From contig NSKI01000001.1 in assembly GCA_003586005.1 (NCBI GenBank), positions 1 through 64,000 on the forward strand: a DNA stretch of 64,000 nt. Reading direction: 5' to 3'. Position 1 is the stretch's first letter; the number at the start of each line of letters is the position of its first letter. The notes beneath the pieces are model-generated. The model searched no databases. It was not told the origin of the DNA and saw only the letters and a program-made list of their open reading frames with translations. Position numbers and translations under genes: made by a program. Source of the stretch: Haloplasmatales bacterium 4B (GTDB lineage Bacteria; Bacillota_I; Bacilli_A; Haloplasmatales; Haloplasmataceae). Of the stretch, positions 7,954 through 59,809 are shown piece after piece.

Positions 7954-7963
7954 GCCTCTCTTA
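7935..7963. terminator. Weak hairpin at the end of rlmD
   Basis: AGAGGC (7938-7943) pairs with GCCTCT (7954-7959), extendable to TAA/TTA with one mismatch. The rlmD stop codon is in the loop. No strong T-run follows. Confidence 0.35.
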
Positions 7964-8194
7964 ATTCAATATATCATCTAATGAGGGTGGGGAAGAGATA
8001 TTATAATATATCCTAATTTTTCCACCTTCAAAAACTTCTATTTTTTGTATAAGACGTTGGAGCACTTGCTTTAATATCTGTTGATCATTAATATCAAGTT
8101 TTGTGAAACTTCTTACTTCAGATTTGAAAGATTCAATATGTTGTTCAATATAATTATAGGTTTCAGTAGAATACCCGAATAACCAAATAACCAT
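7961..8194 (-). pseudogene. C-terminal fragment of a large serine recombinase
   Basis: About 77 residues on the minus strand. The segment FTKLDINDQQILKQVLQRLI followed by QKIEVFEGGKIRIYYNISSP resembles the extreme C-terminus of large serine recombinases of integrative elements, where a leucine-rich helix precedes a KIEV...KI.I.YN strand. No catalytic or zinc domain is present, and upstream of 8194 no continuation was found. It looks like the scar of an integrative element at the edge of the accessory patch. The assignment is from motif memory and is moderate. Confidence 0.45.
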
Positions 8195-33467: not shown

Positions 33468-33986
33468 TTATTTTTTTACAGCCCTTTTTAGTTTTTTAAC
33501 TATCAAAGGAACTATTGTATTACGGTTTTCTAACGTAATAGGTATAAGTTCTACATTAGGATGATATTTTATTGAGTTCAACCAAAAAATAGGAGTATCT
33601 TTTATAACTCCTAATATAGGGATATCTTCACCTAGACATTTAAGAATAATGTTTTGAAATAAGGGTGCATCTTGTTCTAAAAAGCCTAACTCATCCATGC
33701 AAATCAAGTCAGATTTGCTATTTTGCAGAATGGACATACCTAAAGAATTAAAAACATCAGGAATTCCTGTTGCTCCATAAATGTTCCGTTTTGCTACTTT
33801 GTTTTTAATTTCATATTTTCTTGTATCATTAAAAGCAGAAATATAGATATCCATATCATCTCCGATACCTGGATATGTAGAAAACCCACCAACTTTAATT
33901 TTTTGTTCGGTAGTTAAAGTAGCTATAACTTTTTTAATAATAGTACTTTTTCCAATATTTTTAGGCCCTAATAGAAATACATGCAT
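33468..33986 (-). CDS. P-loop NTPase, THEP1-like
   Basis: A 172-residue nucleoside triphosphatase of the NTPase_1/THEP1 type. Walker A is GPKNIGKST (7-15), and Walker B with acidic pair is DLICMDELGFLE (about 95-106); the central GGFST and C-terminal basic tail also fit. It is the last gene of a minus-strand operon with a metal-chelate type ABC permease and ATPase, 19 bp after the ATPase gene. THEP1 proteins have broad NTPase activity but an unclear physiological role. Its fixed place beside an ABC importer suggests a role in handling the imported cofactor or metal, which is inference. Confidence 0.75.
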   Translation of the reverse strand: MHVFLLGPKNIGKSTIIKKVIATLTTEQKIKVGGFSTYPGIGDDMDIYISAFNDTRKYEIKNKVAKRNIYGATGIPDVFNSLGMSILQNSKSDLICMDELGFLEQDAPLFQNIILKCLGEDIPILGVIKDTPIFWLNSIKYHPNVELIPITLENRNTIVPLIVKKLKRAVKK

Positions 33987-34005
33987 GAGTATCCTCTTTT
34001 CCTTA

Positions 34006-34788
34006 CTATTTATGTATTGGCATACAGATATTCATTTCATCATTGAAGCGATCAGTTACTGTCATAATATCCATAGGTATACCATAAACTCTTTCTAATG
34101 CTTTACTAGTTAATACCTCTAGTGGCTTACCGAATCCGACTTTTCTTCCGTTAGAAAGCAGCAACACTTTTGAGGCAATAGAAAATGGTTCAGAAGGGCT
34201 GTGAGTTGTAAGTATAACACTTCTGCCTTCCTTAACTGCTGTAGATATCGCATCCATAACAAGTAGTTTATTTGCGAAATCTAAACTTGATGTAGGCTCA
34301 TCCATTATTAGAATACTTGCATCTTGACAAATTGCTCTAGCTATTAAGACCAATTGACGTTCACCACCAGAAATATTAGTGTATAACTTGTTTGCCATAT
34401 GTGCTATTTTTAATTTCTCTAGAGCCTCGTAGGCGATGTTGATATCGTCTTTTGATGGGGTATTCCATTTACCAATATGACACGTGCGCCCCATTGTTAC
34501 CATTTCAAGAATAGTGTAAGGAAATAACATCCTATCTGATTGAGGCATGTAAGAAAAGATTTGTGCTAAAGTTTTTCGATCTATTTTATCCGTATTCTTT
34601 CCATGTATAAAAACATTCCCAGTCATCTTTGTTATGATCCGTAATAAAAGTTTTAGTAATGTTGATTTGCCACAACCATTAGGTCCCAAAATGCATAGAA
34701 CATCTCCTTCATTTATATTAAAAGATATATTATGAAGGATTTCTTTTTTTCCATAACCTCCTATGAGGTTTTCAACTTGTAACTGCAT
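34006..34788 (-). CDS. Metal-chelate/cobalamin-type ABC importer, ATP-binding protein
   Basis: A 260-residue ATPase of the FecE/BtuD group (type II importers). Walker A is GPNGCGKST, the Q-loop YMPQSDRMLFPY, the signature ISGGERQLVLIAR, Walker B ILIMDEPTSSLD, and the H-loop TTHSP. Starts 7 bp after the permease gene; minus-strand ribosome site AGGTGAAG. The binding protein is encoded divergently at 35945. Iron-siderophore, cobalamin, molybdate and tungstate are all known substrates of this class; the sequence alone does not decide. Confidence 0.88.
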   Translation of the reverse strand: MQLQVENLIGGYGKKEILHNISFNINEGDVLCILGPNGCGKSTLLKLLLRIITKMTGNVFIHGKNTDKIDRKTLAQIFSYMPQSDRMLFPYTILEMVTMGRTCHIGKWNTPSKDDINIAYEALEKLKIAHMANKLYTNISGGERQLVLIARAICQDASILIMDEPTSSLDFANKLLVMDAISTAVKEGRSVILTTHSPSEPFSIASKVLLLSNGRKVGFGKPLEVLTSKALERVYGIPMDIMTVTDRFNDEMNICMPIHK

Positions 34789-34795
34789 CTATACT

Positions 34796-35800
34796 TCACC
34801 TCACACGTTTTAATATCAATATTATGAAAAAAGGTGCACCCATTATTGCTGTTAAAACACCAAGGGGGATTTCCATAGAGTAAAGGGAGCGTGCTAAATT
34901 GTCCATTAATAGTAGGAATAAGCCACCAATTAGAATGTTGATAGGAAACATCCGTCTATAATCAGCACCAACTAGACCTCTAGAAATATGAGGTATCATT
35001 AAGCCAATCCAACCAATAAGACCACCAAGACATACAGCTGAGGCACTAATAACCGTAGCTGAGGCTACAGCGATAAATCTTGTTGCTTTTGGGTCAATAC
35101 CCATAGTTAATGCTTCTTCATCTCCTAAAGTCAAGATGTTCAAGCGCCAGCGTAATAAATAAATTACTAAACAACCAATGATAATTGGAATTGAGCTGAA
35201 TAAAACAGAATCTATAGTCACTTTAGAAAGACTTCCCATCAACCAAAAAGTGATAGCTGGGAGTGTATCATTAGGATCTGCAAGATATTTTAATAATGTA
35301 ATCAAAGAAGAAGCTAATGCTCCAAGCATACTTCCAGCGAGTATTAAGCTAACATCATGGTTGTACTTAGCTCTTGAGCCAATAAAGTAGGCCAAAGAAA
35401 CAACTATTATTCCAAAGGTAAAAGCATACACTTGGACCATAAAATCTGATTGCTGCAAAGTCAGTGCAAGGGCAGCTCCTAAACCAGCTCCAGTAGAAAC
35501 ACCTAAAATATCAGGGGAAACAAGAGGGTTTTTAAACATACCTTGGTATGAGGCTCCTGCTATACTTAAGCCTGATCCAATTGTATAAGCGGCAAGTATT
35601 CTAGGAATACGAATTCTTGTTATGATTATAGAAACTTCATTACTAACGGAATCTTTACCTAGAAATATTAAATTAAGAACTTCTTTTATTGATATATGGT
35701 AAAACCCTACTGTTAATGATCCAACAATAAGTAGAATGTTGAGGAATAACAACAAAAACACCATTAACTTAAATTTCCTTCTCTTTAATCTATCATCCAT
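34796..35800 (-). CDS. Metal-chelate/cobalamin-type ABC importer, FecCD permease
   Basis: A 334-residue permease with about ten helices, FecCD family. Landmarks are the periplasmic/cytosolic pattern GASYQGMFKNPLVSPDILGVS (shown in part), the coupling region LGDEEALTMGIDP, and GGLIGWIGLMIPHISRGLVG near the C-terminus. Start at 35800 is chosen because GGAGAATTTT directly precedes ATGGATGATAG. The first gene of a three-gene minus-strand operon behind a consensus promoter that is back-to-back with that of the binding protein gene. Confidence 0.9.
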   Translation of the reverse strand: MDDRLKRRKFKLMVFLLLFLNILLIVGSLTVGFYHISIKEVLNLIFLGKDSVSNEVSIIITRIRIPRILAAYTIGSGLSIAGASYQGMFKNPLVSPDILGVSTGAGLGAALALTLQQSDFMVQVYAFTFGIIVVSLAYFIGSRAKYNHDVSLILAGSMLGALASSLITLLKYLADPNDTLPAITFWLMGSLSKVTIDSVLFSSIPIIIGCLVIYLLRWRLNILTLGDEEALTMGIDPKATRFIAVASATVISASAVCLGGLIGWIGLMIPHISRGLVGADYRRMFPINILIGGLFLLLMDNLARSLYSMEIPLGVLTAIMGAPFFIILILKRVR

Positions 35801-35831
35801 AAAATTCTCCAAAGCGCATATTATTGTTTTA

Positions 35832-35860
35832 AGTATAATTCATTAAAATATTTCAGTCAA
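35832..35860 (-). promoter_or_regulatory. Promoter of the FecCD permease operon
   Basis: On the minus strand TTGACT (35860-35855), 17 bp, TATACT (35837-35832). Confidence 0.75.
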
Positions 35861-35879
35861 GGATACAATATCCCAAATA

Positions 35880-35908
35880 TTGACAAAAAAAAGAAATTAG
35901 TTTATTCT
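35880..35908 (+). promoter_or_regulatory. Promoter of the binding-protein gene
   Basis: TTGACA (35880-35885), 17 bp, TATTCT (35903-35908). It is 20 bp from the divergent promoter; no Fur-type box is visible. Confidence 0.75.
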
Positions 35909-35944
35909 GAAATTATCAAGAATAATGAAAGGAATAAGTGATTT

Positions 35945-37000
35945 ATGTATAAGGGAAAATTACTAATTCTCCTAGGTTTAGTATTTTATTCTCTAGTTCT
36001 ATCAGGGTGCACTTTTGATAGCTCTGATGATTATAGAGAAATTACTGACATGGGGGGAAGAACAGTTTTAATTCCTGATAAAGTTAATTCTGTATTTTCC
36101 ACAATTGCTTCAGGAACAATTGTCATTTATACTATTGATCCAGAATTACTTGTAGGGGTAAATTATGATTTTAATGAAATGGAAAAAGAGTTTATTTTAG
36201 AAGCTTATCAAGACTTACCATCATATGGACAAGGAAGTAAAATAAATAAGGAAGCTATCATAGCTGCTGAGCCTGATATTATCATTACCTATGGAACAAT
36301 TAATGACTCAGAAATTTCTTTTGCTGATAATTTTCAAGAACAGACCAATATTCCTGTATTAATGGTAGATGGAGCCTTAGAGAAAGCACCAGAAGCTTAT
36401 CGTTTTTTAGGGAAAGTATTTGATCTAAAAGATAGAACTGAATTGTTAGCTACATATGCTGAAGGAGCTTTATATTTTGCTTCAGAAATTAATGCACTTG
36501 TTACTGAGCAAATATCTATTTATTATGGAAATGGTATTGATTCTTTAGAAACAGTTCCAACAAACTCAACTCACGCAGAATTATTTAATTTAGTAAATGT
36601 TAAAAATGTTGCTGTTATCGGGGGAGAAATTATAGACCGAGTTGATGTTAGCTCTGAACAAATAATTGTTTGGAATCCAGAAGTAATAATTCTTAATGGA
36701 GAACCGTCTGAAAATGAATCGCCAATTACTGCTGTTGAATCTTTCAAAAACAATTCTAATTATCAAAATGTTAGAGCGGTAATTAACGACAAGGTTTTTG
36801 CTATTCCTAAATATCCCTATAGTTGGTTTGACCGTCCTCAATCTGTTAATCGCTTAATTGGTATTTATTGGCTAACTGATATTGTTTATCCTGAATTAAA
36901 GGATGTCTTTGTTATTCAAGAAGCAAAAGAATTTTATAAATTATTTTATCACTATGAATTATCAGAAGAAAACATTACATTGTTACTTGGAAATAAGTAA
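35945..37000 (+). CDS. Metal-chelate/cobalamin-type ABC importer, substrate-binding lipoprotein
   Basis: A 351-residue lipoprotein: signal peptide MYKGKLLILLGLVFYSLVLS with lipobox LSGC (Cys22), then a type III periplasmic-binding fold (EITDMGGRTVLIPDKVNSVF at the start; AAEPDIIITYG; IVWNPEVIILNG). The near-C-terminal YSWFDRPQSVNRLIGIYWL and the ending YELSEENI are like binding proteins seen with molybdate/tungstate or iron type II importers, but I cannot fix the ligand. It is divergent from its permease-ATPase-NTPase operon and immediately precedes the NifX/MinD-like cluster. Confidence 0.85.
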   Translation: MYKGKLLILLGLVFYSLVLSGCTFDSSDDYREITDMGGRTVLIPDKVNSVFSTIASGTIVIYTIDPELLVGVNYDFNEMEKEFILEAYQDLPSYGQGSKINKEAIIAAEPDIIITYGTINDSEISFADNFQEQTNIPVLMVDGALEKAPEAYRFLGKVFDLKDRTELLATYAEGALYFASEINALVTEQISIYYGNGIDSLETVPTNSTHAELFNLVNVKNVAVIGGEIIDRVDVSSEQIIVWNPEVIILNGEPSENESPITAVESFKNNSNYQNVRAVINDKVFAIPKYPYSWFDRPQSVNRLIGIYWLTDIVYPELKDVFVIQEAKEFYKLFYHYELSEENITLLLGNK

Positions 37001-37057: not shown

Positions 37058-37085
37058 TTGACATATGTTCTAAATAGAATATAAT
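37058..37085 (+). promoter_or_regulatory. Promoter of the NifX/MinD-like cluster
   Basis: TTGACA (37058-37063), 16 bp, TATAAT (37080-37085). Confidence 0.75.
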
Positions 37086-37096
37086 ATAATTGAATA

Positions 37097-37108
37097 GGGC
37101 ATATGCCC
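37097..37108. promoter_or_regulatory. Perfect palindrome GGGCATATGCCC at the transcription start
   Basis: A 12-bp perfect palindrome starting 12 bp after the -10 box, in very AT-rich surroundings. Candidate operator for the DUF134 DNA-binding protein encoded by the second gene of the operon. Confidence 0.6.
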
Positions 37109-37131: not shown

Positions 37132-37365
37132 ATGCCAGGTAGAGATGGAACAGGTCCGATGGGACAAGGAGCTATGACAGGAAAAGGGATTGGATATTGT
37201 GTTGGAAATAATGCTTCAAGAAAATTAGGATTAAGTTATAGAAGAGGATGCAATAAATTTATTTCAACTGAATCTGAGTCACAGAACGAATTACTACATA
37301 ATAGGCTCAATACTATTAGCCAACAAATAGAAGATTTGAAAGAATCTATTAAGCAACAGGGATAG
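37132..37365 (+). CDS. DUF5320-type small glycine-rich protein
   Basis: A 77-residue protein beginning [19 protein letters not shown], the hallmark of DUF5320 proteins (usually MPRGDGTGPMG...). These small proteins of anaerobes and archaea usually sit beside NifX/NafY-like and MinD-like genes. Residues 45-77 form a predicted coiled coil ([20 protein letters not shown]). One Cys (YCVG) and another (RRGCNK) could bind a metal. ATG at 37132 follows AAAGGAGGTGTTAG, a very strong site. Function unknown. First gene of the cluster; a 14-bp hairpin overlaps its 3' end. Confidence 0.8.
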
Positions 37366-37381
37366 TATATCCCTGTTGCTT
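37351..37381 (+). other. Perfect 14-bp hairpin overlapping the stop of the DUF5320 gene
   Basis: AAGCAACAGGGATA (37351-37364) and TATCCCTGTTGCTT (37368-37381) pair fully around a 3-base loop. The TAG stop (37363-37365) is inside. It is followed by AAAACC, not by a T-run, so it is not a classic terminator. It may protect or cut the mRNA so that the first gene is expressed more than the rest. Confidence 0.7.
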
Positions 37382-37408
37382 AAAACCTTACTTAAGAGGA
37401 GTTTAAAT

Positions 37409-37807
37409 ATGCCAAGACCAAGAAAATGGAGAAAAGTTTGTTGTTTGCCAGAAAATAATCTCTTTGGCCCACTTAGTTCAGCAAGTATCAACAATAAAAT
37501 AATAATAATGACTGTAGAAGAATATGAAACAATCCGCTTAATAGACTTTGAAGGATTAATGCAAGAAGAATGCGCTGAAAGAATGAATGTAGCGCGAACA
37601 ACTGTGCAACGAATTTATAATGATGCACGAAAAAAACTTGCTGATGCTCTTGTAAATGGTAAAATTCTAAAGATAGAAGGCGGAGATTACCAGCTTTGTG
37701 AAGAAAATGAAAAATTATATAGATGTGGTAGATGTTGTGGGCAAGGATTTAGTAGGAATCAAAATAAAAAAAAGGAGATTTCAAATGAAAATATTAATAC
37801 CAAGTAA
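37409..37807 (+). CDS. DUF134 family DNA-binding protein
   Basis: A 132-residue protein of the DUF134/UPF0251 family. N-terminus [20 protein letters not shown] is typical. A sigma-70 region-4-like HTH follows ([20 protein letters not shown] and [13 protein letters not shown], about 53-85), and the tail has Cys pairs ([12 protein letters not shown]) that may bind a metal or cluster. ATG at 37409 follows TTAAGAGGAG. It overlaps the next gene by 23 bp. It is the probable regulator of the cluster, perhaps through the GGGCATATGCCC palindrome (inference). Confidence 0.85.
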
Positions 37808-38153
37808 TGAAAAATCTATGGATTCGAGCGTATGTCAGTCCTTTGGACGTGCACCATATTTTCTTATTTATGATACAAATTCAAAAGAAGATATTTACAT
37901 AGATAATAGTGCTACAGCTAGCCTGGGTGGAGCAGGAATAAAAGCGGCACAGACTGTAGTTGATAACAATGTGTATGCGGTACTTACACCACGTTGTGGA
38001 GAAAATGCTGCTTCTGTTTTAAAAACAGCAAATATAAAAATATTTAAAACAAAAAATAGTTCAATTAAAGATAATATAATAGCATTTAACGAAGACAAGT
38101 TATCATTATTATCAGAAATTCATGCTGGGTTTCACAACCATGGAGATAAATAA
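37785..38153 (+). CDS. NifX/NafY-like (dinitrogenase iron-molybdenum cofactor) family protein
   Basis: A 122-residue protein of the Nitro_FeMo-Co fold: [30 protein letters not shown] at the N-terminus (in part), then [22 protein letters not shown], and [12 protein letters not shown]. In nitrogen fixers this fold carries FeMo-co precursors; stand-alone members such as Desulfovibrio ORP bind Mo-Cu-S clusters. Cys17 and Cys74 are candidate ligands. ATG at 37785 follows AAAGGAGATTTC inside the end of the DUF134 gene. No nitrogenase gene is in the window, so the cofactor is probably not FeMo-co. Confidence 0.87.
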
Positions 38154-38154
38154 C

Positions 38155-38994
38155 ATGAAAATAGCTGTTTTAAGTGGTAAAGGAGGAACAGGAAAAACTC
38201 TTGTTTCTGTAAATTTGGCAGCAGCCGCAAATCATGCAAACTATCTAGATTGTGATGTTGAAGAACCTAATGGACATCTATTTTTCAAACCAGTTGATAT
38301 ACAATCAGAAGATATTTCAATCAAAATCCCGGTAGTAGACAAAATGCTGTGCAATGGTTGCAGGAAATGTGTTGATTTTTGTAAATTCAATGCTTTAACT
38401 TACATCTATGATAGATTAGTTGTTTTTGAATCTATGTGTCACTCTTGCGGTGGTTGTGTACTTCTTTGTAAAGAGGATGCTTTGACTGAAAAAACAAAAA
38501 ATATTGGAGTGGTGCAAAGAGGTGTTTCAGAAAATGTTAATGTTGCTACAGGTATATTAAATACTGGGGAAGCTTCTGGAATCCCAATCATTAAAAACTT
38601 ATTAAATTATTCAAATGAAAATGATAAATATACATTTATTGATTCCCCACCAGGAAGTGCTTGCACAACTATGGAAAGTATTAAAGATGCAGATTATTGT
38701 ATACTAGTAGCTGAACCAACTATATTTGGAGTTCATAATCTAAGTATGGTTTATGAACTTGTAAATTTATTTGGAAAACCACATGGTGTAATCTTGAATA
38801 AATGTTTAGATGAAAAAAACCCTGCTGAAGAATTTTGTATAGAAAATAATATTAAAATTTTAGGTAAAATCCCCTTTGAAGATGAACTTGGAAAATTAAA
38901 TTCAAATGCGTTGATTGCAGTTAGAGAAAATGAAAAATACTATAGTCTTTTTTCTAATTTACTTAAGATAGTTTCAAAAGAGGTAACAAAATGA
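38155..38994 (+). CDS. MinD/Mrp-like P-loop ATPase with ferredoxin insert (first)
   Basis: A 279-residue ATPase with the deviant Walker A LSGKGGTGKT (residues 5-14), an inserted 2x[4Fe-4S] ferredoxin domain (CNGCRKCVDFC and CHSCGGCVLLC, about 63-105) and the Walker B-like FIDSPPGSACT. Proteins of this type (Orp3/Orp4-like, related to the Mrp/Nbp35 scaffolds) are thought to couple ATP use to metal-sulfur cluster handling. ATG at 38155 lies just after the upstream stop and follows GGAGATAAATAAC. Four bp overlap with its paralogue. Cytosolic. Confidence 0.9.
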   Translation: MKIAVLSGKGGTGKTLVSVNLAAAANHANYLDCDVEEPNGHLFFKPVDIQSEDISIKIPVVDKMLCNGCRKCVDFCKFNALTYIYDRLVVFESMCHSCGGCVLLCKEDALTEKTKNIGVVQRGVSENVNVATGILNTGEASGIPIIKNLLNYSNENDKYTFIDSPPGSACTTMESIKDADYCILVAEPTIFGVHNLSMVYELVNLFGKPHGVILNKCLDEKNPAEEFCIENNIKILGKIPFEDELGKLNSNALIAVRENEKYYSLFSNLLKIVSKEVTK

Positions 38995-39854
38995 AACAAC
39001 TGTTAATACTTAGTGGTAAAGGTGGAACAGGTAAAACAACAATCGCTAGTGCTTTTATAAAATTAGCTAATGCGAAAGCTTTTGCTGATTGTGATGTTGA
39101 TGCGCCTAATTTACATCTAGTCATAAATAATACTGTAAATGTAAAAAGTTCACATTATTATGGTTTACCAAAGGCAGAGATAGATTCAAATTTATGTATC
39201 AAATGTGATACTTGTAGAAATTTATGCCGATTTGACGCAATTTACTATGATGATGGATATAAAGTGGATAGTTATGCTTGTGAGGGATGTGGAGTATGTG
39301 AAGCAATGTGTCAAGCTGGAGCAATCTCGCTAAAACCAGCTATAGATGGTAATTTAAAATTGTATGTAAATGATACCGTATTTTCTACTGCTCAACTCAA
39401 AATGGGAAGTGGAACTTCTGGAATGTTAGTAACTGAGGTAAAACAACAGTTGAAATCAGCTGCTAATAATGTTAATCTAGCAATTATTGATGGATCGCCA
39501 GGTATAGGTTGTCCTGTAATTGCATCATTAAGTGGTGTGGATCTAGTTTTAATTGTTGCAGAACCTTCGATATCAGGAATCAGTGATATGAAACGTATTA
39601 TTAAAACAGCTGAAAGCTTTCAAACTAAATCAGTAGTTTGTGTTAATAAATATGATACAAATAAGGAAAATACAGAAAAAATCGAATTGTTTTGCAAAAA
39701 ATATAAGCTACCTTTTGTGGGTGAGATTCCATTTGATAAAAATGTTGTTAAAGCAATTAATAATAACCAAAGTATAGTTGATATAGATTGTTTAGCAAGT
39801 AGAGCCATAAAAGGGATTTTCAAAAAAACAATTGAAATTTTATTTGAAGATTGA
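38991..39854 (+). CDS. MinD/Mrp-like P-loop ATPase with ferredoxin insert (second)
   Basis: A 287-residue paralogue of the preceding ATPase: Walker A LSGKGGTGKTT (6-16), ferredoxin insert with CIKCDTCRNLC and CEGCGVCEAMC (about 66-108), and the switch/Walker B region IIDGSPGIGCP. ATGA overlap with the first ATPase and a 1-bp TGATG overlap with the next gene show tight translational coupling, so the two probably act as a heterodimer, as proposed for ORP-associated ATPases. Ends in TGA. Confidence 0.9.
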   Translation: MKQLLILSGKGGTGKTTIASAFIKLANAKAFADCDVDAPNLHLVINNTVNVKSSHYYGLPKAEIDSNLCIKCDTCRNLCRFDAIYYDDGYKVDSYACEGCGVCEAMCQAGAISLKPAIDGNLKLYVNDTVFSTAQLKMGSGTSGMLVTEVKQQLKSAANNVNLAIIDGSPGIGCPVIASLSGVDLVLIVAEPSISGISDMKRIIKTAESFQTKSVVCVNKYDTNKENTEKIELFCKKYKLPFVGEIPFDKNVVKAINNNQSIVDIDCLASRAIKGIFKKTIEILFED

Positions 39855-40678
39855 TGATTGTAAAAACTTTAGTAGAAAATACATCAATTTCAGAAGATTT
39901 TACATGTGAACATGGGTTAAGTTTATATATAGAGACAAAAAAGCATAAGCTTTTATTTGATTTAGGACAAAATAATTTATTTATTGAAAATGCAAAGAAA
40001 TTGAATGTGAATCTATCAGATGTAGATATTGTAGTTATATCTCATGGGCATTATGACCACGGAGGGGGGCTAGAGGCGTTTTTAAATATTAATTCCAAAG
40101 CAAAAATATATCTCAGTCAAAGAGCATTTAAAGATTATTATTCTTATAGACATAATGGTGAAATAGCTTATATTGGATTGAATAAAGAATTATTACCTAA
40201 TAATCGATTTGTATTTGTTGAGGATTATCTTTATATTGACGAGGAACTTGAATTATTTTCAAATATAAAATGTAAAGAAATGATGCCATTAAGCAATAAG
40301 AACATTTTTGTGAAATCAAATAATTCATTTTTGCATGATGATTTTTCACATGAACAAAACCTAATTATAAGTGAATTAGGAAAAAGGGGGTTATTTGTTG
40401 GGTGTGCTCACTGTGGAATAGTAAACATCATAAAACAGATAAATGAAATAAATGCAGAACCGATAGAATTTGTTGTGGGTGGCTTTCATCTATACAACCG
40501 TACTGCAAAGAAGTGCGAAGACAACGACCTAATAGGTGAAATAGGGAGCTTTCTAAATAATACAGGGTCAATATATTTTACTTGCCATTGTACAGGAATA
40601 CAACCATTTATAAAACTTAAAAAAATAATGGGTGATAAGGTACAATATATATCAACAGGAAGTATAATAGCGTTATAA
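39854..40678 (+). CDS. MBL-fold metallo-hydrolase
   Basis: A 274-residue protein with the metal site ISHGHYDHGGGLEAF (about residues 61-75), VGCAHCGIVNII and GGFHLYN for the later ligands. The N-terminus MIVKTLVENTSISEDFTCEH is typical of the group often annotated as 7,8-dihydropterin-6-methyl-4-(beta-D-ribofuranosyl)-aminobenzene-5'-phosphate synthase-like. The substrate is unknown. Start overlaps the upstream stop in TGATG. The family is recurrently found near NifX/MinD-like genes; a role in cofactor or thiol chemistry is a guess. Confidence 0.85.
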   Translation: MIVKTLVENTSISEDFTCEHGLSLYIETKKHKLLFDLGQNNLFIENAKKLNVNLSDVDIVVISHGHYDHGGGLEAFLNINSKAKIYLSQRAFKDYYSYRHNGEIAYIGLNKELLPNNRFVFVEDYLYIDEELELFSNIKCKEMMPLSNKNIFVKSNNSFLHDDFSHEQNLIISELGKRGLFVGCAHCGIVNIIKQINEINAEPIEFVVGGFHLYNRTAKKCEDNDLIGEIGSFLNNTGSIYFTCHCTGIQPFIKLKKIMGDKVQYISTGSIIAL

Positions 40679-40693
40679 AAAAAGGGGAATTTG

Positions 40694-41385
40694 GTTGTGT
40701 AGTAAATGTAATGTAGATGAAGCAGCAGAATAAAAAAGTAAATGTTGTTATAAGCGTGAAAGTCAGAGTAGGGAAATCGCTTGTTACTTATATGCTAGCA
40801 TTATTAACAAATAGATATAGGTATATTACTGTTTTTCCTATGGGCAGGATCATCTATACCAAAAACATTTTGCATCAAAGACAAAGTAAAGCAGGGGTGC
40901 TGATATTATCTTGATAAAACTAATTGTAGAAAATGAAATAGATCCTGTAGTTTGGAGAGGTTCAATTATTGAAGGGACTGTAAAACAACTTTGAACAGAT
41001 GCCATATGAAGTAATGTAGGTTTTATGTTTATTGATATACCATCTGGAACAGGTTATGTGGTCCTTACTGTTTTTCAATCAATTCCTGTAGATGGAATTA
41101 TTATTGTAACTTCACCTCAGGAATTAGTTTCAATGATTGTTTCTAAAATAGTAAAAATGGCAGAGATGATGAGCATCCCAATTATAGGTTTGTTAAAAAT
41201 ATGGCTTATTTTAAATGTCCGGATTGCGAAAAAGAACATCAAATATTTGGTGATAGCCAGTACAATATTGATATTCTAGGCAAAATACCGATAGATTCAA
41301 AACTTGCCAAAGCCTGCGATAAAGGATTAATTGAACTTTTTAGCGATGATTAGCTTGATAAGATACCGGAAATTTTAGAAAAAAC
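40694..41385 (+). pseudogene. Decayed Mrp/Nbp35-type ATPase
   Basis: Pieces of an Mrp-family ATPase lie in three frames: CSKCNVDEAAE; VNVVISVKVRVGKSLVTYML (a P-loop mutated from GKGGVGKS); ENEIDPVVWRGSIIEGTVKQ; FIDIPSGTGYVVLTVFQSIP; GIIIVTSPQELVSMIVSKIV; MAYFKCPDCEKEH; NIDILGKIPIDSKLAKACDK and GLIELFSDD. Several stops and frameshifts and the altered P-loop show it is dead. In related clusters this gene is intact and follows the paired MinD-like ATPases, so one component has been lost here. Confidence 0.8.
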
Positions 41386-41398
41386 AGGAGGAAAGAAA

Positions 41399-41755
41399 AT
41401 GAAAATTGCTGTTGCAAGTGAAAATGGATATGTTACAGAACATTTTGGTTATTGTGAAAGTTTTATAATTTTTGAAATTGAAAATAATGAAATTATTAAA
41501 AAAGAGATTAAAGCTAACCCTGGACATAGACCAGGTTATTTACCTAATTACCTACATGAATTAGGAGTAAATATTATTATTTCAGGAGGAATGGGTGGTG
41601 GTGCCATCGAAATTTTTAATGAAAAAAAGATTAAAGTTATTACTGGTGCAAAAGGAAGTGCTGATTCAGCAGTAAATAATCTTTTACAAGGTACATTAGA
41701 ATCAACAAATTCAGTCTGTCATGAACATCAGCATCATGATGAATTCGGAAATTAG
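41399..41755 (+). CDS. NifX/NafY-like family protein with His-rich tail
   Basis: A 118-residue second member of the Nitro_FeMo-Co fold: MKIAVASENGYVTEHFGYCE at the start, the EIENNEIIKKE hairpin, and GVNIIISGGMGGGAIEIFNE. It ends with a histidine cluster, CHEHQHHDE, that likely binds metal. It differs from the first NifX-like protein, which has no His tail. ATG at 41399 follows AAAACAGGAGGAAAG. It sits after the decayed Mrp gene and before two half-size permeases. Confidence 0.87.
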   Translation: MKIAVASENGYVTEHFGYCESFIIFEIENNEIIKKEIKANPGHRPGYLPNYLHELGVNIIISGGMGGGAIEIFNEKKIKVITGAKGSADSAVNNLLQGTLESTNSVCHEHQHHDEFGN

Positions 41756-41768
41756 GAGAATTAAATTT

Positions 41769-42242
41769 ATGACGATTGCTTTATATATTGTAGCCTTCTC
41801 AGCATTATTTGCCTCATTTATTAAAAGTAAGCAAAAAACTATACTTTCTTTAAAAAAAGCTTGGAAAGCCTTTGAAAATATCCTTCCACAATTATTTTCA
41901 ATATTAGTAATTATTGGAATTATATTGGCTATATTAACCCCTGAACAAATATCTGTTTTAATGGGTAATGAATCAGGTTGGTTTGGGGTAATATTGGCTG
42001 CTACAATTGGATCTATTACACTTATTCCTGCTTTTGTAGCTTTTCCTTTAGCATCAGCTTTATTAGAAAGTGGTGCTGGATTTATGCAAATTGCTGCTTT
42101 TATATCAACACTTATGATGGTGGGAGTAGTCACTTCTCCAGTTGAAATTAAATATTTTGGTAAGAAAGCGACTATTATCAGAAATGTATTAGCACTTACT
42201 TTCTCCTTATTTGTTGCCTTTGTAATGGCGGTGCTAATGTAA
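41769..42242 (+). CDS. Permease, first half (ArsP/YraQ-like, PF03773 type)
   Basis: A 157-residue membrane protein with four to five helices. Landmarks are KAWKAFENILPQLFSILVII and the conserved GAT/ST-rich loop LAATIGSITLIPAFVAFPLA. It resembles one half of the two-part permeases often found next to NifX-like genes. ATG at 41769 follows TTAGGAGAATT. Stop and start of the next gene overlap by one base (TAATG), so both halves probably form one transporter. The substrate is unknown; metal or arsenic-type compounds are known for distant relatives. Confidence 0.8.
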   Translation: MTIALYIVAFSALFASFIKSKQKTILSLKKAWKAFENILPQLFSILVIIGIILAILTPEQISVLMGNESGWFGVILAATIGSITLIPAFVAFPLASALLESGAGFMQIAAFISTLMMVGVVTSPVEIKYFGKKATIIRNVLALTFSLFVAFVMAVLM

Positions 42243-42787
42243 TGAATAGTTTAATAAAGGGAGTAAATCGCTATAAAGTTTTCATTGTTCTTGTTTTAAT
42301 CAATCTTATTATATTTATAATTAATCCTGATTTAGGAAATAAATCAGCAAAGATAACTTGGAGTAATACTAAGGTAATGGTATCTATTATTCCACCAGTT
42401 TTTATTCTGTTTGGTCTTCTAGATGTTTGGGTTAAGCGGGAAACAATGGTTAAGTACTTGGGTGAAGGTTCAGGATTTAAAGGTGTGATATTAGCATTGT
42501 TTTTAGGCTCAGCTGCAGCAGGTCCTTTATATGCAGCTTTTCCTGTTGCTATTATACTTTTAAAAAAAGGAAGTAGGTTATTTAATGTATTAATTATGTT
42601 AGGTGCTTGGTCGACAACTAAAATACCGCTACTGTTGTTTGAATTATCAGTGATGGGTTTAAAGTTTACTATTATAAGGCTTTTCCTTAATTTATTTGGG
42701 ATCATAGTAATTGCTTATTTTACGGAGAGAATTCTTTCAAAAACTGAAAAGCAAGAGATATATAACATAGCATTTAATCAAAAGTAA
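42242..42787 (+). CDS. Permease, second half (ArsP/YraQ-like)
   Basis: A 181-residue membrane protein with about five helices. ISIIPPVFILFGLLDVWVKR and the loop LALFLGSAAAGPLYAAFPVA mirror the first half. The gene closes the cluster; a strong terminator lies downstream. Together with the first half it makes a roughly ten-helix channel. Confidence 0.8.
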   Translation: MNSLIKGVNRYKVFIVLVLINLIIFIINPDLGNKSAKITWSNTKVMVSIIPPVFILFGLLDVWVKRETMVKYLGEGSGFKGVILALFLGSAAAGPLYAAFPVAIILLKKGSRLFNVLIMLGAWSTTKIPLLLFELSVMGLKFTIIRLFLNLFGIIVIAYFTERILSKTEKQEIYNIAFNQK

Positions 42788-55800: not shown

Positions 55801-58280
55801 AAATAACCTTCAATATATTCAAAATTTTCTAGCTCTTCTTCAACTTTATCTAGATAAATAGCAGCGTCTTTATTGAGGTATTTAGAGACTAATGTATGGG
55901 CAATGTGTAATAAAGCATCTACAATATTCTTTTTGTTATTTGTGAGATAAGCAAGTTCTTTAGCTTCGTGGTAATATTTTAAAGCCAAATTATTGACACC
56001 AATATCAAAATAGAGTGTACCTATTTGAAAAAGTAGTTCAGTTTTTTTAAAGTTATCTTCAACAAAAGAGATAGCTTTTTCTAAATTTTCCGCTACACCT
56101 TTTAAATTTTTCATTGATTGCATTCTTTTAGCATTTTCAATACAATATTTGACTACCTTTTCTTTGATTGATGCTCTTTCTAAATGCATAATTAATTCAT
56201 TTAAATCAGAAGATGATGTAAGAGTTTTTTCAAGCATGATAGATGCTTGTTTATGTTTTTCAGCTTTTTCAGAATCTTCAATCTTATTATAAACAATATC
56301 TTTTAAAACTCGATTATTTAAATCATAGGCATAACCAGTGTCAACTATCTTTCTGTTTAAAATACCACTGCCCACTAATTTTTGAACAATTTTTTCTATT
56401 TCATCAATAGAAATCTCCATAAATTGAGAGAGATTTTTTATTGTTAACGGGTTATTGAAAATAGAAATAATTTTCAATATTTCGTGACTTAGCTCATCGG
56501 AGTCTTTTAATTGGTTAATTAAAGCTTGTTCTATACTGTTTGGAATAGTTAATAAATTATATGCACCAGTATCTGGCAATTCGATACTCCAATAGCCACT
56601 ATTACTATTTACATAAAGAATTTTACGGCTATAGAAGTCTTTTAAAACCTCACTGATAAAGAGAGGGTTTCCATAAGATTGTGAATATATTCTATCTGAT
56701 AATTTGACTGGAATATGAGACATTGTTAACATATTTTTTATTAGTATTCCAGAATCCTCAGTATCTAGATTCTTCAAGTAGATTGTTTCAGCATCTTGTT
56801 TTATATTAATGTTTTCAATAAATTCTGCAAATCTTGGGTTATTATTGATGTCTCCCTCTTTATATGAAAAAACTAATATAATATTTCTGCTTTTCATAAC
56901 TTCAGTATATAAATATGTAAAAGTATCAATTGTAAATTCATTAGCAAGGTTAATGTTATCAACAACAATAACAGTTGGTTCATTTTTTACACTATCGCTA
57001 ATAAAAGCAGCAATTCGATTAAGTAAACGATATTTTGTATTATCTTCAGTTAAATATTCTGTGGGAACAATATTTTTTCTATCAACTATTTCTGGGAAAA
57101 ATTTCATAAGTTCTGATTCATATTTATCAATAGTTTCTCTATCGGTTTCTAAAATTAATTTTCTTAGAATTTCAATCCACATTTTATTACTACTATCATT
57201 TAAGTTACTTAAACTAAAACTAGAATAAATATTTGCTCTTTTTAGTTCAAGTAAAAATTTGATTTCTTCTAAAAAACGTGTTTTACCAACTCCAACATCA
57301 CCTTGAACTAAGAATATCTTTTTGAATTTCTTAAATTTAATCATATTATCATAAGCGTTCATTATTAAATTAATTTCTTTTTCTCTGCCAATAATCTTAG
57401 TATGAAAATTTAATTTTTCATACCCTTCTTTACTGAAAAGTTTATGCTCCGTATTTAAGGCCCTGTTTAATTCTGTAAAAAAATTATACAAAGTTAAATA
57501 AGGATTATCTTCATCAATTGTAATTAGTTTTTCCACAAACGGAAATAATTTATTTAAAAAATTGATTTCTTCCTCACTAATACTTTTATTATTATTTACC
57601 TCAGTTTTAAAATCTGCCAATTCAACTTTAGGGTCTTTTTTGCATCTTTCCTTTTTAAGCATTGTAAGTAATAAAATACCTAATGAATATATCACAGATT
57701 GTAAGTTCGGATACTCCCCTGATAAGGCTATTGGAGACTTAAAATATGAAACTTCTGACTTATCACCAATAAAACAATGCTTTTCTAATTCAACAGTAGC
57801 TAAATCTTTAAGTTTTAATTTATATCCGTCACTATTTATAATAATAAAAATATTTTTCAAGTTTATTGATTCATAAAGATACCCTTTTAAATTAAGGTAA
57901 TTTATAGCTCTACAAGCTTCAATAAATACGTCCATAATTTCGAAGACATTCAAATTTCCAATGTGATCTAGCAAGTTTTTAGGTTTTTCAATGTATTCAC
58001 ATGTATAATAATATTGATTTGAATTACTTTTTTTATTGTCAAGATATGATATAACATTAAAATTGTAATTGTTAATAATAATATTATTGTTAATATTTAT
58101 TAAACTAATAAATTCACTTGAGTAGAATTCAATTAAGGAATGAGGTGTAAACTCAGGATTTAAAATATTTAATTGCATTACCTTATGATCATCTAAAATA
58201 TCAGAAACTAAATAAGATGTAATAAGTTTATTCTGCATTAAATTCTTAACAATTCTATATCTGTGATTAACCAATTCCAT
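52872..58280 (-). CDS. Giant signalling protein: pseudokinase, STAND-type ATPase, TPR, GAF, GGDEF, GAF
   Basis: An 1802-residue cytosolic protein. Residues 1-270 are kinase-like but degenerate: the HRD loop reads YLYESINLKNIFI and DFG reads KDLA, so no kinase activity is expected. A P-loop ATPase follows (Walker A QGDVGVGKTRF near 326-336; VIVVDNINLANEF as Walker B). About 650-1200 is a long run of TPR-like helices (for example YYHEAKELAYLTNNKKNIVD). A GAF domain lies at roughly 1290-1445, then GGDEF (FKNVNDRFGHQTGDEV; KYGGDEFIII near 1541) and a C-terminal GAF. The active GGDEF motif predicts c-di-GMP synthesis. No RxxD inhibitory site precedes it. ATG at 58280 follows AAGGGTGAG. Confidence 0.87.
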   Translation of the reverse strand: MELVNHRYRIVKNLMQNKLITSYLVSDILDDHKVMQLNILNPEFTPHSLIEFYSSEFISLININNNIIINNYNFNVISYLDNKKSNSNQYYYTCEYIEKPKNLLDHIGNLNVFEIMDVFIEACRAINYLNLKGYLYESINLKNIFIIINSDGYKLKLKDLATVELEKHCFIGDKSEVSYFKSPIALSGEYPNLQSVIYSLGILLLTMLKKERCKKDPKVELADFKTEVNNNKSISEEEINFLNKLFPFVEKLITIDEDNPYLTLYNFFTELNRALNTEHKLFSKEGYEKLNFHTKIIGREKEINLIMNAYDNMIKFKKFKKIFLVQGDVGVGKTRFLEEIKFLLELKRANIYSSFSLSNLNDSSNKMWIEILRKLILETDRETIDKYESELMKFFPEIVDRKNIVPTEYLTEDNTKYRLLNRIAAFISDSVKNEPTVIVVDNINLANEFTIDTFTYLYTEVMKSRNIILVFSYKEGDINNNPRFAEFIENINIKQDAETIYLKNLDTEDSGILIKNMLTMSHIPVKLSDRIYSQSYGNPLFISEVLKDFYSRKILYVNSNSGYWSIELPDTGAYNLLTIPNSIEQALINQLKDSDELSHEILKIISIFNNPLTIKNLSQFMEISIDEIEKIVQKLVGSGILNRKIVDTGYAYDLNNRVLKDIVYNKIEDSEKAEKHKQASIMLEKTLTSSSDLNELIMHLERASIKEKVVKYCIENAKRMQSMKNLKGVAENLEKAISFVEDNFKKTELLFQIGTLYFDIGVNNLALKYYHEAKELAYLTNNKKNIVDALLHIAHTLVSKYLNKDAAIYLDKVEEELENFEYIEGYLEFKRIKALILLNTNFLEESAKICLEILSECGDNYYRIKANTYRILALGYSKGSNIEKALDLYSEAIRLYELIDDIRGVLIALNNIGGIYIDVYQDEDKALNYFIKVYNLGEEYGLTSLELVGLMNIAFVYSSRFNYESAYVYAKRALEKIPKDNFSNNIFYLYNYLTKLCLNMNNYTEAYHYHNLCLKELEKSPNQGLDIVEMYKSSSDLYDAFGDFKESEVFANKTITFFKDEVNIEKFVYMIRSLIIKIRFKEIGSYDSEIEEISNTCQKFVMPEYIINSLSSAAMVLGEKKDYKNANKLLDQAEEAMNGQIHNEALVKYYYAKGIVSEKNECIKFLQTGLVLGKKIKNKEIIAKINLKLGDYYFSENNYYYSANYYIEAGEVIRSLISQIPDKYKLMYVNSYKIARAFYKIKYIKNILISHNTKNNNEDLKEKCEVSSFEQLFSLLKNNEATAFIKNKAFMRVISKQFNPNFYESNNPSDILTKIGSNTINNIELVIKHLATTILATGGLVVIEGQKQELNVLSSINDNFSLPSNMYIFDRVKSSLKPICISGQLSKNDFDNNLLSGNINACLCIPIISDYQQENSFSSKHNILGYLYLESDRTLNNFNDEGLQRCLEFINFLALLIEKHQLKRDASLDKLTGALTRKYLEDDLNEKLEKSSCLGETFSIIMYDLDKFKNVNDRFGHQTGDEVLKKISKLVLDNISENDSLGKYGGDEFIIIQPNTDCEKATLFAEKLRKKIQLERVLGDKAEITVSMGIVTYPIHGQTVPELIEKVDQALYVAKESGRNECQVWHRDFTNKVKPKNKLSGIISGDAVQDSRNILALLELIELFKKNITQKGKIYNFLGRIIELVDAQYGNLLLIENEEIVENYGRKSQDEDWIENSFINDETVQLVINNKQGIYMIDWDNFKKHDIITGLPDWNSILVVPISAHDKIKGILYLTVSTRIKEFGNNDLNFINVLSDLAVTII

Positions 58281-58523: not shown

Positions 58524-58709
58524 GATAATGTAGTTGACTTAAAAATCAATAAAGAATATCCTAAAGTAATTGAAATAATGAAAAAAATCCAGTTATGTTA
58601 AATACAACTGGACGTTTTATGACTATTCCAAAAGTGCAAAAAAAACGAATTGATTAAAGGAAAAATTAAAGAAATATTTATAGATAAAGGCTATAGGGTA
58701 GCAGATTAA
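58524..58709 (+). pseudogene. Decayed DUF1858-like small protein
   Basis: The plus strand reads DNVVDLKINKEYPKVIEIMK KI, then a stop. After frame changes it continues as MLNTTGRFMTIPKVQKK and ELIKGKIKEIFIDKGYRVAD before a TAA. This follows the DUF1858 pattern (DLxxxVxxLxxEYPEVIEIM ... GRFMTIPKGAKMKGI ... KGKIKEIFxxKGY). It is broken by a stop and frameshifts and ends inside the convergent mnmH gene. Confidence 0.65.
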
Positions 58710-59809
58710 ATATTTTTACCAGATAAAGTCTTTAAAAATTCCATGACTTCTTTTTCGTTACCTTTAAAAATAATATGGTTTTTATTTTTGTTCATTTGGT
58801 AATTATACATTGGATCATAATATTCTTTAAGCAATATTTCTAACCATTTATTGTGACTGTTTTTATTTCCGTTTCTAAGTTGGGAATCATACGAAATCTC
58901 TAATTCTTTCATTACTCGGCTAAAACAATCACCACCAAGCCGTTTTTTAATTCGCAAAATGCTGTTGCTTATATACTTATACCATTCAATAAATCCCTCT
59001 TCTTCACCAAAGTGTATAGTATAATCAAGTTGTGATTTAGTAACATATTCATCTAAAGTAATTTGCAGCCGTTTTTCAAACGGAATTTCCAAAATCACAA
59101 GATTTCCACTCCTGAAATATTCAAACAGTGGTTTGGGAATAACGTTTCGTCCAATATTAGAACTTTCGTCTTCAAGTATATTAAAACAATATCCCTTTTC
59201 TCTATTTTGAATAATGGAATAAGCTAGATTATTTTCAAAAGTTATTTGCGAAGGTTGTGCTGTTAAGTTTTTTCCAAATGACGAGCCTCTATGATTGGCT
59301 AAACCTTCTAAATCAATTGAATTTTCTATTTTTTTTAATAAGAGTGTTTTACCTGACCCTGTATAGCCACCAAGTAAAACTGGTATGCTAGTTTGTTCTC
59401 GTGGCTCTAAAGCTTTGATGAGATAATTTCTAAAAGCTTTATATCCACCATCTAGTCTAGTTATATAAATTCCAAGTTCATTATGAAGCCATTCTTGGCT
59501 AATTCTCGAACGACTACCACCTCGTAAGCAATATATCATACTATTAGGGTGTTTCTTAATATGAGAACCCCATGCTTCTATTCGCTCTCTTCTTTTCTTT
59601 CCTGAAACTAAATGATGTCCTAATTTTAGAGCTTCTTCATTGCCCTTTTCTTTGTAACAAATACCCACTAAATGTCTTTCTTCATCATTCATGAGGGGTA
59701 GATTTATTGAATTAAAAAAAGCTCCTTTTTCATACTCAATTGGAGAACGTACATCAATTAAGGGTATATTTTGAGTTACAATTTTTTTGAAATCATTTGT
59801 TTTATTCAT
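58706..59809 (-). CDS. mnmH: tRNA 2-selenouridine synthase
   Basis: A 367-residue enzyme (MnmH/SelU) that converts 2-thiouridine to 2-selenouridine at the wobble position of some tRNAs, using selenophosphate. The N-terminal rhodanese domain (about 1-130) has IPLIDVRSPIEYEKGAF and the catalytic-cysteine loop IYCLRGGSRSR. The C-terminal P-loop domain has GGYTGSGKTLLLKKI, and the family segment GLANHRGSSFGKN. ATG at 59809 follows GGAAGTG. Single gene. Its presence implies selenophosphate synthetase (SelD) elsewhere in the genome. Confidence 0.95.
   Translation of the reverse strand: MNKTNDFKKIVTQNIPLIDVRSPIEYEKGAFFNSINLPLMNDEERHLVGICYKEKGNEEALKLGHHLVSGKKRRERIEAWGSHIKKHPNSMIYCLRGGSRSRISQEWLHNELGIYITRLDGGYKAFRNYLIKALEPREQTSIPVLLGGYTGSGKTLLLKKIENSIDLEGLANHRGSSFGKNLTAQPSQITFENNLAYSIIQNREKGYCFNILEDESSNIGRNVIPKPLFEYFRSGNLVILEIPFEKRLQITLDEYVTKSQLDYTIHFGEEEGFIEWYKYISNSILRIKKRLGGDCFSRVMKELEISYDSQLRNGNKNSHNKWLEILLKEYYDPMYNYQMNKNKNHIIFKGNEKEVMEFLKTLSGKNI

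Follow-up and report, generated by a model that had tools for sequence, protein, structure and literature searches.

The orange-protein (ORP) complex of Desulfovibrio has as its components Orp3/Orp4, Orp8 and Orp9/MrpORP, with Orp3/Orp4 receiving clusters from MrpORP (PMC6345978). Anaerobic microbes employ such little-understood gene sets in dealing with metal-sulfur clusters. A related array is found in the window, by which is meant the whole 64,000-nucleotide stretch of Haloplasmatales bacterium 4B DNA that was analysed. It is an ORP-type cluster, with a pair of MinD-like ATPases, NifX-fold proteins, Mrp, an MBL-fold hydrolase, DUF134 and DUF5320, and represents a variant of the ORP cluster that comes with a putative efflux pump in two parts and sits behind a conserved DNA switch. 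This operator and its putative regulator, DUF134, provide a direct handle on what ORP complexes do.

All of the parts that the first-pass annotation had listed are present, the dead Mrp included, and its tie to the Desulfovibrio ORP proteins holds, as the components match Orp3/Orp4, Orp8 and Orp9/MrpORP (PMC6345978). All genes are on the forward strand. The first encodes a DUF5320 protein (37132..37365; PF17253, E 6.5e-12) with a Gly/Arg-rich N-terminus, and is followed by the DUF134 helix-turn-helix protein, a putative repressor of the operon (37409..37807; PF02001, E 2e-23). NifX1 (37785..38153; PF02579, E 3e-21) is a one-domain, Orp8-like NifX-fold protein that matches MTH1175 (1eo1) and ORP (2wfb). 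The P-loop ATPases MinD1 (38155..38994) and MinD2 (38991..39854) each have a GKGGTGKT motif and two four-cysteine Fe-S motifs. The MBL-fold metal hydrolase that follows (39851..40678) begins with TTG and has 2p4z (the nearest solved chain, E 4e-37) and TM1679 (3h3e) as relatives. A decayed Mrp domain (about 40717..41398) then runs in frame with NifX2 (41399..41755; PF02579), and two half-size ArsP_1-like permeases, PermA (41769..42242) and PermB (42242..42787), close the array. The argument that these genes overlap by 1-23 bp and so act together fails for the array as a whole, as only four of the nine junctions overlap (by 23, 4, 4 and 1 bp) and the remainder are gaps of 1-45 bp. A 16-bp hairpin (37349..37383, forward strand; dG -26.7, z -6.2) lies at the DUF5320 stop, before DUF134; several relatives have hairpins at the matching position that are unrelated in sequence, and an Rfam search found no match in the window.

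The array reflects more than chance association, since a NifX gene is found within 5 kb of the MinD pair at 64 of 80 loci in Bacteria and Archaea, as opposed to two NifX genes in 348 kb of flanking sequence. In anaerobic bacteria and archaea alike, the cluster is conserved about its MinD pair, bearing out the expectation that these neighbours would co-occur in other genomes. Anaerovirgula multivorans (L102), which can be cultivated, is one anaerobe that shares the core layout. NifU-type scaffold genes are likewise enriched, with 16 near the 80 clusters versus 1 in 450 kb of flanks. Independence from nitrogenase, which the first-pass annotation had staked on the absence of nif structural genes, is upheld: PF00148 (NifDK/EN-type) has no match anywhere in this genome, which is rated 100% complete, while the controls matched, ruling out a nitrogenase link. 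The MinD-like ATPases also bring to mind cell division or polar positioning, a role that has been put forward for the ORP complex in Desulfovibrio. In D. vulgaris, MrpORP-GFP has a polar location (PMC6345978), and the amphipathic moment of the C-terminal helix reaches the 96th percentile in MinD2 and the 89th in MinD1. Nevertheless, the adjacent MinD pair, although also present in relatives, is patchy in its distribution (17/149 related genomes), and the recurrent neighbours of the inspected clusters are Fe-S, metal and ars genes with no recurring division gene among them, making a division role improbable.

The array is preceded by a sigma-70-type promoter (37058..37085, forward strand) consisting of TTGACA, a 16-nt spacer and TATAAT, which matches the consensus at 12/12 positions and is the top score in the region. 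Around the -35/-10 elements of such promoters lies a paired palindrome, TGRCATATGYCA, present twice about 38 bp apart. It precedes Bacillota ORP operons, the window array (in weaker copies) and a second locus on another contig, C30, and the promoter/operator layout of the window recurs upstream of the clusters of relatives. In the window, the first putative operator copy, TGACATATGTTC (37059..37070), overlaps the -35 element and has two mismatches to the consensus; the second, GGGCATATGCCC (37097..37108), is a perfect palindrome 38 bp from the first, also with two mismatches. Exact pairs of the consensus were found in 9 of 395 genomes, and nine of these ten pairs stand before DUF134, DUF5320, NifX or Mrp (ORP) genes. 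Near-perfect sites number 32 in the 238 kb upstream of MinD2 genes versus 2 in 389 kb elsewhere. The presence of the operator furthermore tracks the DUF134 tree, requiring 5 changes versus 18 with shuffling. As nine of ten exact pairs precede ORP/DUF134 genes and operator presence follows the DUF134 tree, DUF134 is likely to be a repressor acting at the paired palindrome, a role that its distribution points to. DUF134 itself is present in 17/17 genomes with a MinD pair versus 9/132 others, counts that ignore kinship. The operator is missing from archaeal and many other clusters, and DUF134-NifX fusions, which also exist, are without it in one group of Bacilli. In this genome, the C30 pair provides the sole perfect sites, with no more that would extend the regulon beyond C30 and the window array. 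A search of titles and abstracts in the open literature found no report of DUF134 as a regulator or of the paired operator.

The Mrp gene of the window is dead. It has frameshifts and in-frame stops, has lost its N-terminal cysteine region and a Walker A glycine (ISVKVRVGKS where ISGKGGVGKS is expected), and is thus without the working Walker A and CXXC motifs of MrpORP (NF041136). The NifX2 frame that continues from it aligns to positions 265-365 of NF041136 (E 8e-32), the ORP (Di-Nase) domain, and the dead Mrp and NifX2, which share one frame, together made up a single MrpORP fusion that has since been broken. The MrpORP Di-Nase motifs, HFGHCE-type, Pro-rich PGHxPG and a terminal Cys/His motif (PMC6345978), have counterparts in NifX2 as HFGYCE, NPGHRPG and CHEHQHH, the last in a His-rich, acidic tail (CHEHQHHDE). 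The second NifX-like protein of the first-pass annotation therefore does have the PF02579 fold and the His-rich tail ascribed to it, but it is in fact the C-terminal domain, which has survived the breakage of an MrpORP fusion. NifX2 has its own GGAGG Shine-Dalgarno sequence, and GGAGG/AGGAG precedes the internal ATG in 6/7 MrpORP fusions versus 1.4% of internal ATGs; a programmed double product from this internal start was considered and set aside, as a relic of once separate genes fits equally well.

The only intact Mrp-NifX pair found in the genome is at C30, where the two are overlapping genes of 280 and 118 aa, with the deviant Walker A and CXXC motifs present in Mrp. C30 is the rest of a second cluster, mostly deleted, because its Mrp-NifX pair adjoins an OYE gene and what is left of an MBL gene. 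With Mrp dead in the window and an intact pair elsewhere, the notion of a complete pathway at the window locus is not supported. One could suppose that the window copy is a remnant in decay and that other genes have taken over its role, in keeping with the dead Mrp, the weakened operator copies and the deletion of most of the C30 cluster. All reading frames of the array other than Mrp are intact, however, dN/dS between the window and relative G006 is 0.14-0.25 for the measured genes, NifX2 among them, the promoter is perfect, and the losses at the two loci are complementary, rendering such decay improbable. One functional set spread over two loci under the same operator type would amount to complementary loss after duplication or transfer.

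PermB scores 45.2 bits with PF03773 and PermA 22.5, on either side of the Pfam cut-off of 32.3, and the identity of PermA rests mainly on its constant pairing with PermB. The predicted structure of PermB is of moderate confidence (pLDDT 69), and a fold search of the PDB with it gave no match. The pair accompanies 3 of the 80 clusters and is absent from most ORP clusters. Among the closest PermB relatives, 12/14 adjoin NifX/DUF134 or arsenic-resistance genes (ACR3, ArsC, ArsR, ArsE-like and full-length ArsP), versus 1/41 of distant ones, and PermB occurs in 9/17 MinD-pair genomes versus 5/132 others (Fisher, 5e-7; counts ignore kinship). A single contig carries a MinD cluster, DUF134-NifX, PermA/B and ArsR-ACR3-ArsC together. 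The permease pair is thus optional to the cluster but not accidental, in line with a non-random tie to NifX/DUF134, although the ORP and ars contexts of the pair could be independent. Of the import or export that had been left open, export is favoured because the nearest permease relatives are in arsenic-resistance operons.

Import is central to another account, in which the module assembles a heterometal cofactor with Mo, Cu or W taken up by the permease pair or by a FecBCD-type ABC transporter. Orp8-type proteins hold an S2MoS2CuS2MoS2 cluster (PMC6345978), the array has a FecB/FecCD-type ABC importer (34006-37000) and a THEP1 NTPase immediately upstream of it, FecB/FecCD genes are also near a related cluster (L109), and the L104 locus contains a DUF364 "heavy-metal chelation" gene. 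FecCD nonetheless recurs near only 2 of the 80 clusters, and FecBCD/THEP1 were for that reason left out of the module. Moreover, NifX2 is nearer to the MrpORP Di-Nase domain, for which 3Fe-4S has been reported, than to Orp8, and, together with the ars-operon relatives of PermB, this makes the heterometal account unlikely.

Our favoured reading, held tentatively and at a little short of even, is that the locus encodes an ORP-type carrier module for Fe-S or metal-sulfide clusters and a coupled metal(loid) exporter, both under the one repressor, DUF134, with substrate and signal put forward from context. DUF134 on the two palindromes, over the -35 element and the start region, would hold expression down until relieved by a signal from a metal, a metalloid or Fe-S; given the permease link, the candidates for this signal narrow to thiophilic metals and metalloids. 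MinD1, MinD2 and NifX1 may form a heteromeric, ATP-driven carrier like Orp3/Orp4/Orp8, a step for which the composition comes from this analysis and the complex and its receipt of clusters from MrpORP are taken from PMC6345978. Mrp would load this carrier with [4Fe-4S], its source being the intact C30 copy behind an operator of like type, and the window copy has retained only a free ORP domain, NifX2. PermA and PermB would pair into one ArsP-type exporter of a thiophilic metal(loid), for which the gene neighbours make As(III) or Sb(III) species, known to attack Fe-S clusters, plausible candidates. The MBL hydrolase and DUF5320 belong to the module as well. That Bacillota ORP modules at large form a DUF134 regulon, marked by the paired palindrome, that protects or rebuilds Fe-S clusters when metal(loid)s put the cell under stress, while the split ArsP-type pump exports the metal(loid), is a more doubtful extension. 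If true, it would make the orange-protein complex a machine for metal(loid) defence and Fe-S repair, and DUF134 a hitherto uncharacterised repressor family.

Set against described systems, the array shares with the ORP complex (PMC6345978) two MinD-like ATPases with two ferredoxin-type motifs each and a one-domain NifX-fold protein beside them (NifX1 matches 2wfb, E 4e-8). As for MrpORP, the window has a broken copy, and C30 has Mrp and NifX intact as separate genes. The array differs in having a sigma-70-type promoter with a paired palindrome, and a DUF134 gene in the place that a sigma-54 activator gene takes in D. vulgaris; no enhancer-binding-protein gene lies within the array. DUF5320, MBL and the permease pair are further additions. 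NifX/NafY nitrogenase cofactor carriers have the same PF02579 fold, but belong with the nitrogenase that this genome lacks. IssA, in the part of its description consulted (PMC5524996), belongs to PF02579 and carries a tail that is cationic and Gly-rich, and the NifX-fold proteins might similarly scaffold thioferrate for iron-sulfur storage, helped by DUF5320, whose residues 1-45 are Gly-rich and cationic in sequence. Such a tail is absent from both NifX1 and NifX2, and that part of the IssA account involves no ATPases, so that storage is an improbable function. Of the MrpORP/Mrp-NBP35 Fe-S carriers (NF041136), MrpORP aligns with the Mrp remnant and NifX2 taken together, but the window Mrp is dead and the C30 genes overlap rather than being fused. 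Lastly, ArsP/PF03773 permeases, among whose traits is export of trivalent (organo)arsenicals, and SO_0444-type efflux transporters resemble PermB in score and in the ars neighbours of its near relatives, whereas PermA and PermB are two half-size proteins from tandem genes, with PermA below the cut-off.

A gene-by-gene check of the array at 37132-42787, a ten-gene cluster of the orange protein (ORP) type, gives the order DUF5320, DUF134, NifX1, MinD1, MinD2, MBL (an MBL-fold hydrolase), dead Mrp, NifX2, PermA and PermB. Both paired P-loop ATPases, MinD1 and MinD2, retain GKGGTGKT and two four-cysteine motifs, and the array has a sigma-70-type promoter at 37058-37085 with 12/12 matches. The gene overlap described in the first-pass annotation holds at four of nine junctions and is absent from the rest, where the longest gaps measure 43, 38 and 45 bp. 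A strong hairpin (37349-37383, z -6.2) lies between DUF5320 and the next gene and could give DUF5320 a separate mRNA level. Equivalents, unrelated in sequence from genome to genome, follow DUF5320 at relatives' loci L039, L042, L044, L102, L110, L111, L112, L146 and L174, and none is present at others such as L034, L038 and L040.

Immediately upstream of the array is a FecB-type gene, from which THEP1-type NTPase and FecE/FecD genes diverge on the minus strand (33468-37000). In genome G003 (L038), the cluster likewise has a THEP1 gene, ~10 kb downstream. Close to that same cluster is a gene similar to the one at 58706-59809, a Rhodanese-like protein that we take, by eye, to be tRNA 2-selenouridine synthase.

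The expectation that the array's neighbours co-occur in other genomes is borne out by neighbourhood counts around 80 named MinD2 loci, from Bacillota, Thermodesulfobacteriota, Chloroflexota, methanogens, Bathyarchaeota and others. At a distance of up to 5 kb from MinD2, a second MinD-type gene occurs at 69, NifX at 64, Mrp at 32, DUF134 at 24, DUF5320 at 21, MBL at 20 and the permease pair at 3, as counted with family models built here on relatives, which therefore undercount distant family members. Beyond 6 kb, 348 kb hold 2 NifX, 3 DUF134, 4 MBL and 1 Mrp. In total, 16 NifU-type scaffold genes occur near these clusters. Of 149 related genomes, 17 have a MinD2 relative, each with an adjacent MinD1.

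The first-pass annotation listed a dead Mrp and a second NifX-like protein; both are present, but not as separate genes. A translated search with the MrpORP fusion (Mrp plus NifX-fold domain) of the same-family genome G006 (L034) found one reading frame spanning the Mrp remnant and NifX2 (ILEKTGGKK-MKIAVASENG), so that the two are a single broken MrpORP gene. The remnant has lost the Walker A glycine and carries frameshifts and in-frame stops 5' of the NifX2 start. NifX2 aligns with the MrpORP C-terminal domain (NF041136 positions 265-365, E 8e-32) and bears HFGxCE, PGHxPG and terminal Cys/His features, as described for that domain (PMC6345978). Its ATG is preceded by its own GGAGG. The dN/dS of NifX2 against G006 (0.25) is somewhat higher than that of the other measured genes (0.14-0.18), yet far below 1, which is weak evidence for present function because the ratio also includes the period when the gene was still whole. 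GGAGG or AGGAG also stands before the in-frame ORP-domain ATG in 6/7 MrpORP fusion genes (L034, L102, L104, L109, L122 and L164), versus 1.4% of background internal ATGs, reflecting a second product or else the trace of once-separate genes.

A third NifX of this genome (G000) lies on contig C30, directly behind an intact Mrp. C30 10139-12791 (L050) holds, in order, an OYE-family gene, a pair of operator sites (11282/11320), an MBL C-terminal remnant, the intact Mrp and NifX. The remnant comprises the last 74 residues and shares 70% identity with the G006 MBL. Because G006 has the order OYE, operator pair, full cluster and MrpORP, the simplest reading of C30 is a second, once complete cluster that underwent an internal deletion. 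The C30 Mrp shares 89% identity with its G006 counterpart, more than the window genes do with theirs (62-74%), which suggests that C30 came separately, by transfer, or else diverged more slowly. The losses at the two loci are complementary, and C30 would supply the Mrp missing from the window locus, completing the set.

The operator, TGRCATATGYCA, occurs in duplicate upstream of relatives' clusters, 32-39 bp apart, with copy 1 over the -35 and copy 2 immediately past the -10. Upstream of MinD2, 238 kb of sequence contain 32 near-perfect sites, versus 2 in 389 kb elsewhere, and the pair is found at 14/30 Bacillota/Synergistota loci and 0/50 other loci. Since the motif came to light in these very clusters before it was tested, the scan of 395 genomes is the cleaner evidence: it yields 10 exact pairs in 9 genomes, 9 of the 10 pairs being ahead of DUF134, DUF5320, NifX or Mrp genes. 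In this genome, perfect sites occur only at the C30 pair; the window pair has two mismatches per copy. DUF134 is present in 17/17 genomes with the MinD pair versus 9/132 without, and at several loci is fused to NifX. Where DUF134 lies outside the cluster, the palindrome precedes its own operon (L287, L288, L290, L292, L299, L301), and it likewise precedes DUF134 in four genomes that lack the MinD pair (L289, L304, L306, L311). Site presence on the DUF134 tree requires 5 changes, versus 18 in shuffles. By this distribution, DUF134 is the candidate regulator of operator-bearing operons.

In the 395-genome class sample, strong relatives of PermB, a half-size ArsP_1-like permease, are paired with an adjacent PermA in nearly all regions read out. 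NifX/DUF134 or ars genes lie within 5 kb of 12/14 PermB relatives at ~50% identity or more and near 1/41 of the more distant ones (55 in total), some of the latter judged on only 1.5 kb per side. Among the closest relatives, PermA/B occur between DUF134-NifX of a MinD cluster and ArsR-ACR3-ArsC (L112/L243), alongside a MinD cluster with MrpORP (L109/L244), after Mrp, a C_GCAxxG-NifX fusion and NifU (L242), and after DUF134-NifX (L082, L083); several of ACR3, ArsC, ArsR, ArsE-like and ArsP genes lie near the PermB relative at L245, L246 and L250. In the PermB tree, the window protein belongs to a group of 10 rows, 7/10 with ORP-type neighbours, deep branches being only moderately supported. Among the 149 genomes, PermB is present in 9/17 with the MinD pair versus 5/132 without (Fisher 5e-7, genomes taken as independent). 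In L082 and L083, PermB is directly followed by a small membrane protein that carries two Cys-rich motifs (L082_9, 6710-7303; L083_11, 7433-8023); L082_9 has no Pfam match.

The sole ACR3 match in this genome is a truncated fragment with stops, below cut-off, following ArsR-like and ArsC-like frames (L317, G000:C77, ~55856-56155) named by eye from their resemblance to identified genes. A dedicated arsenite exporter thus seems to have decayed, which fits a possible role of PermA/B in metalloid export.

In composition the array is nearly identical to the ORP complex of Desulfovibrio (PMC6345978), and the module is predicted to function like it. Unlike that complex, it seems to be regulated otherwise, carries DUF5320, MBL and permease genes in addition, and has a broken MrpORP; what is new here is the association with permeases, the operator together with the regulator proposed for it, and the losses that complement each other between two loci.
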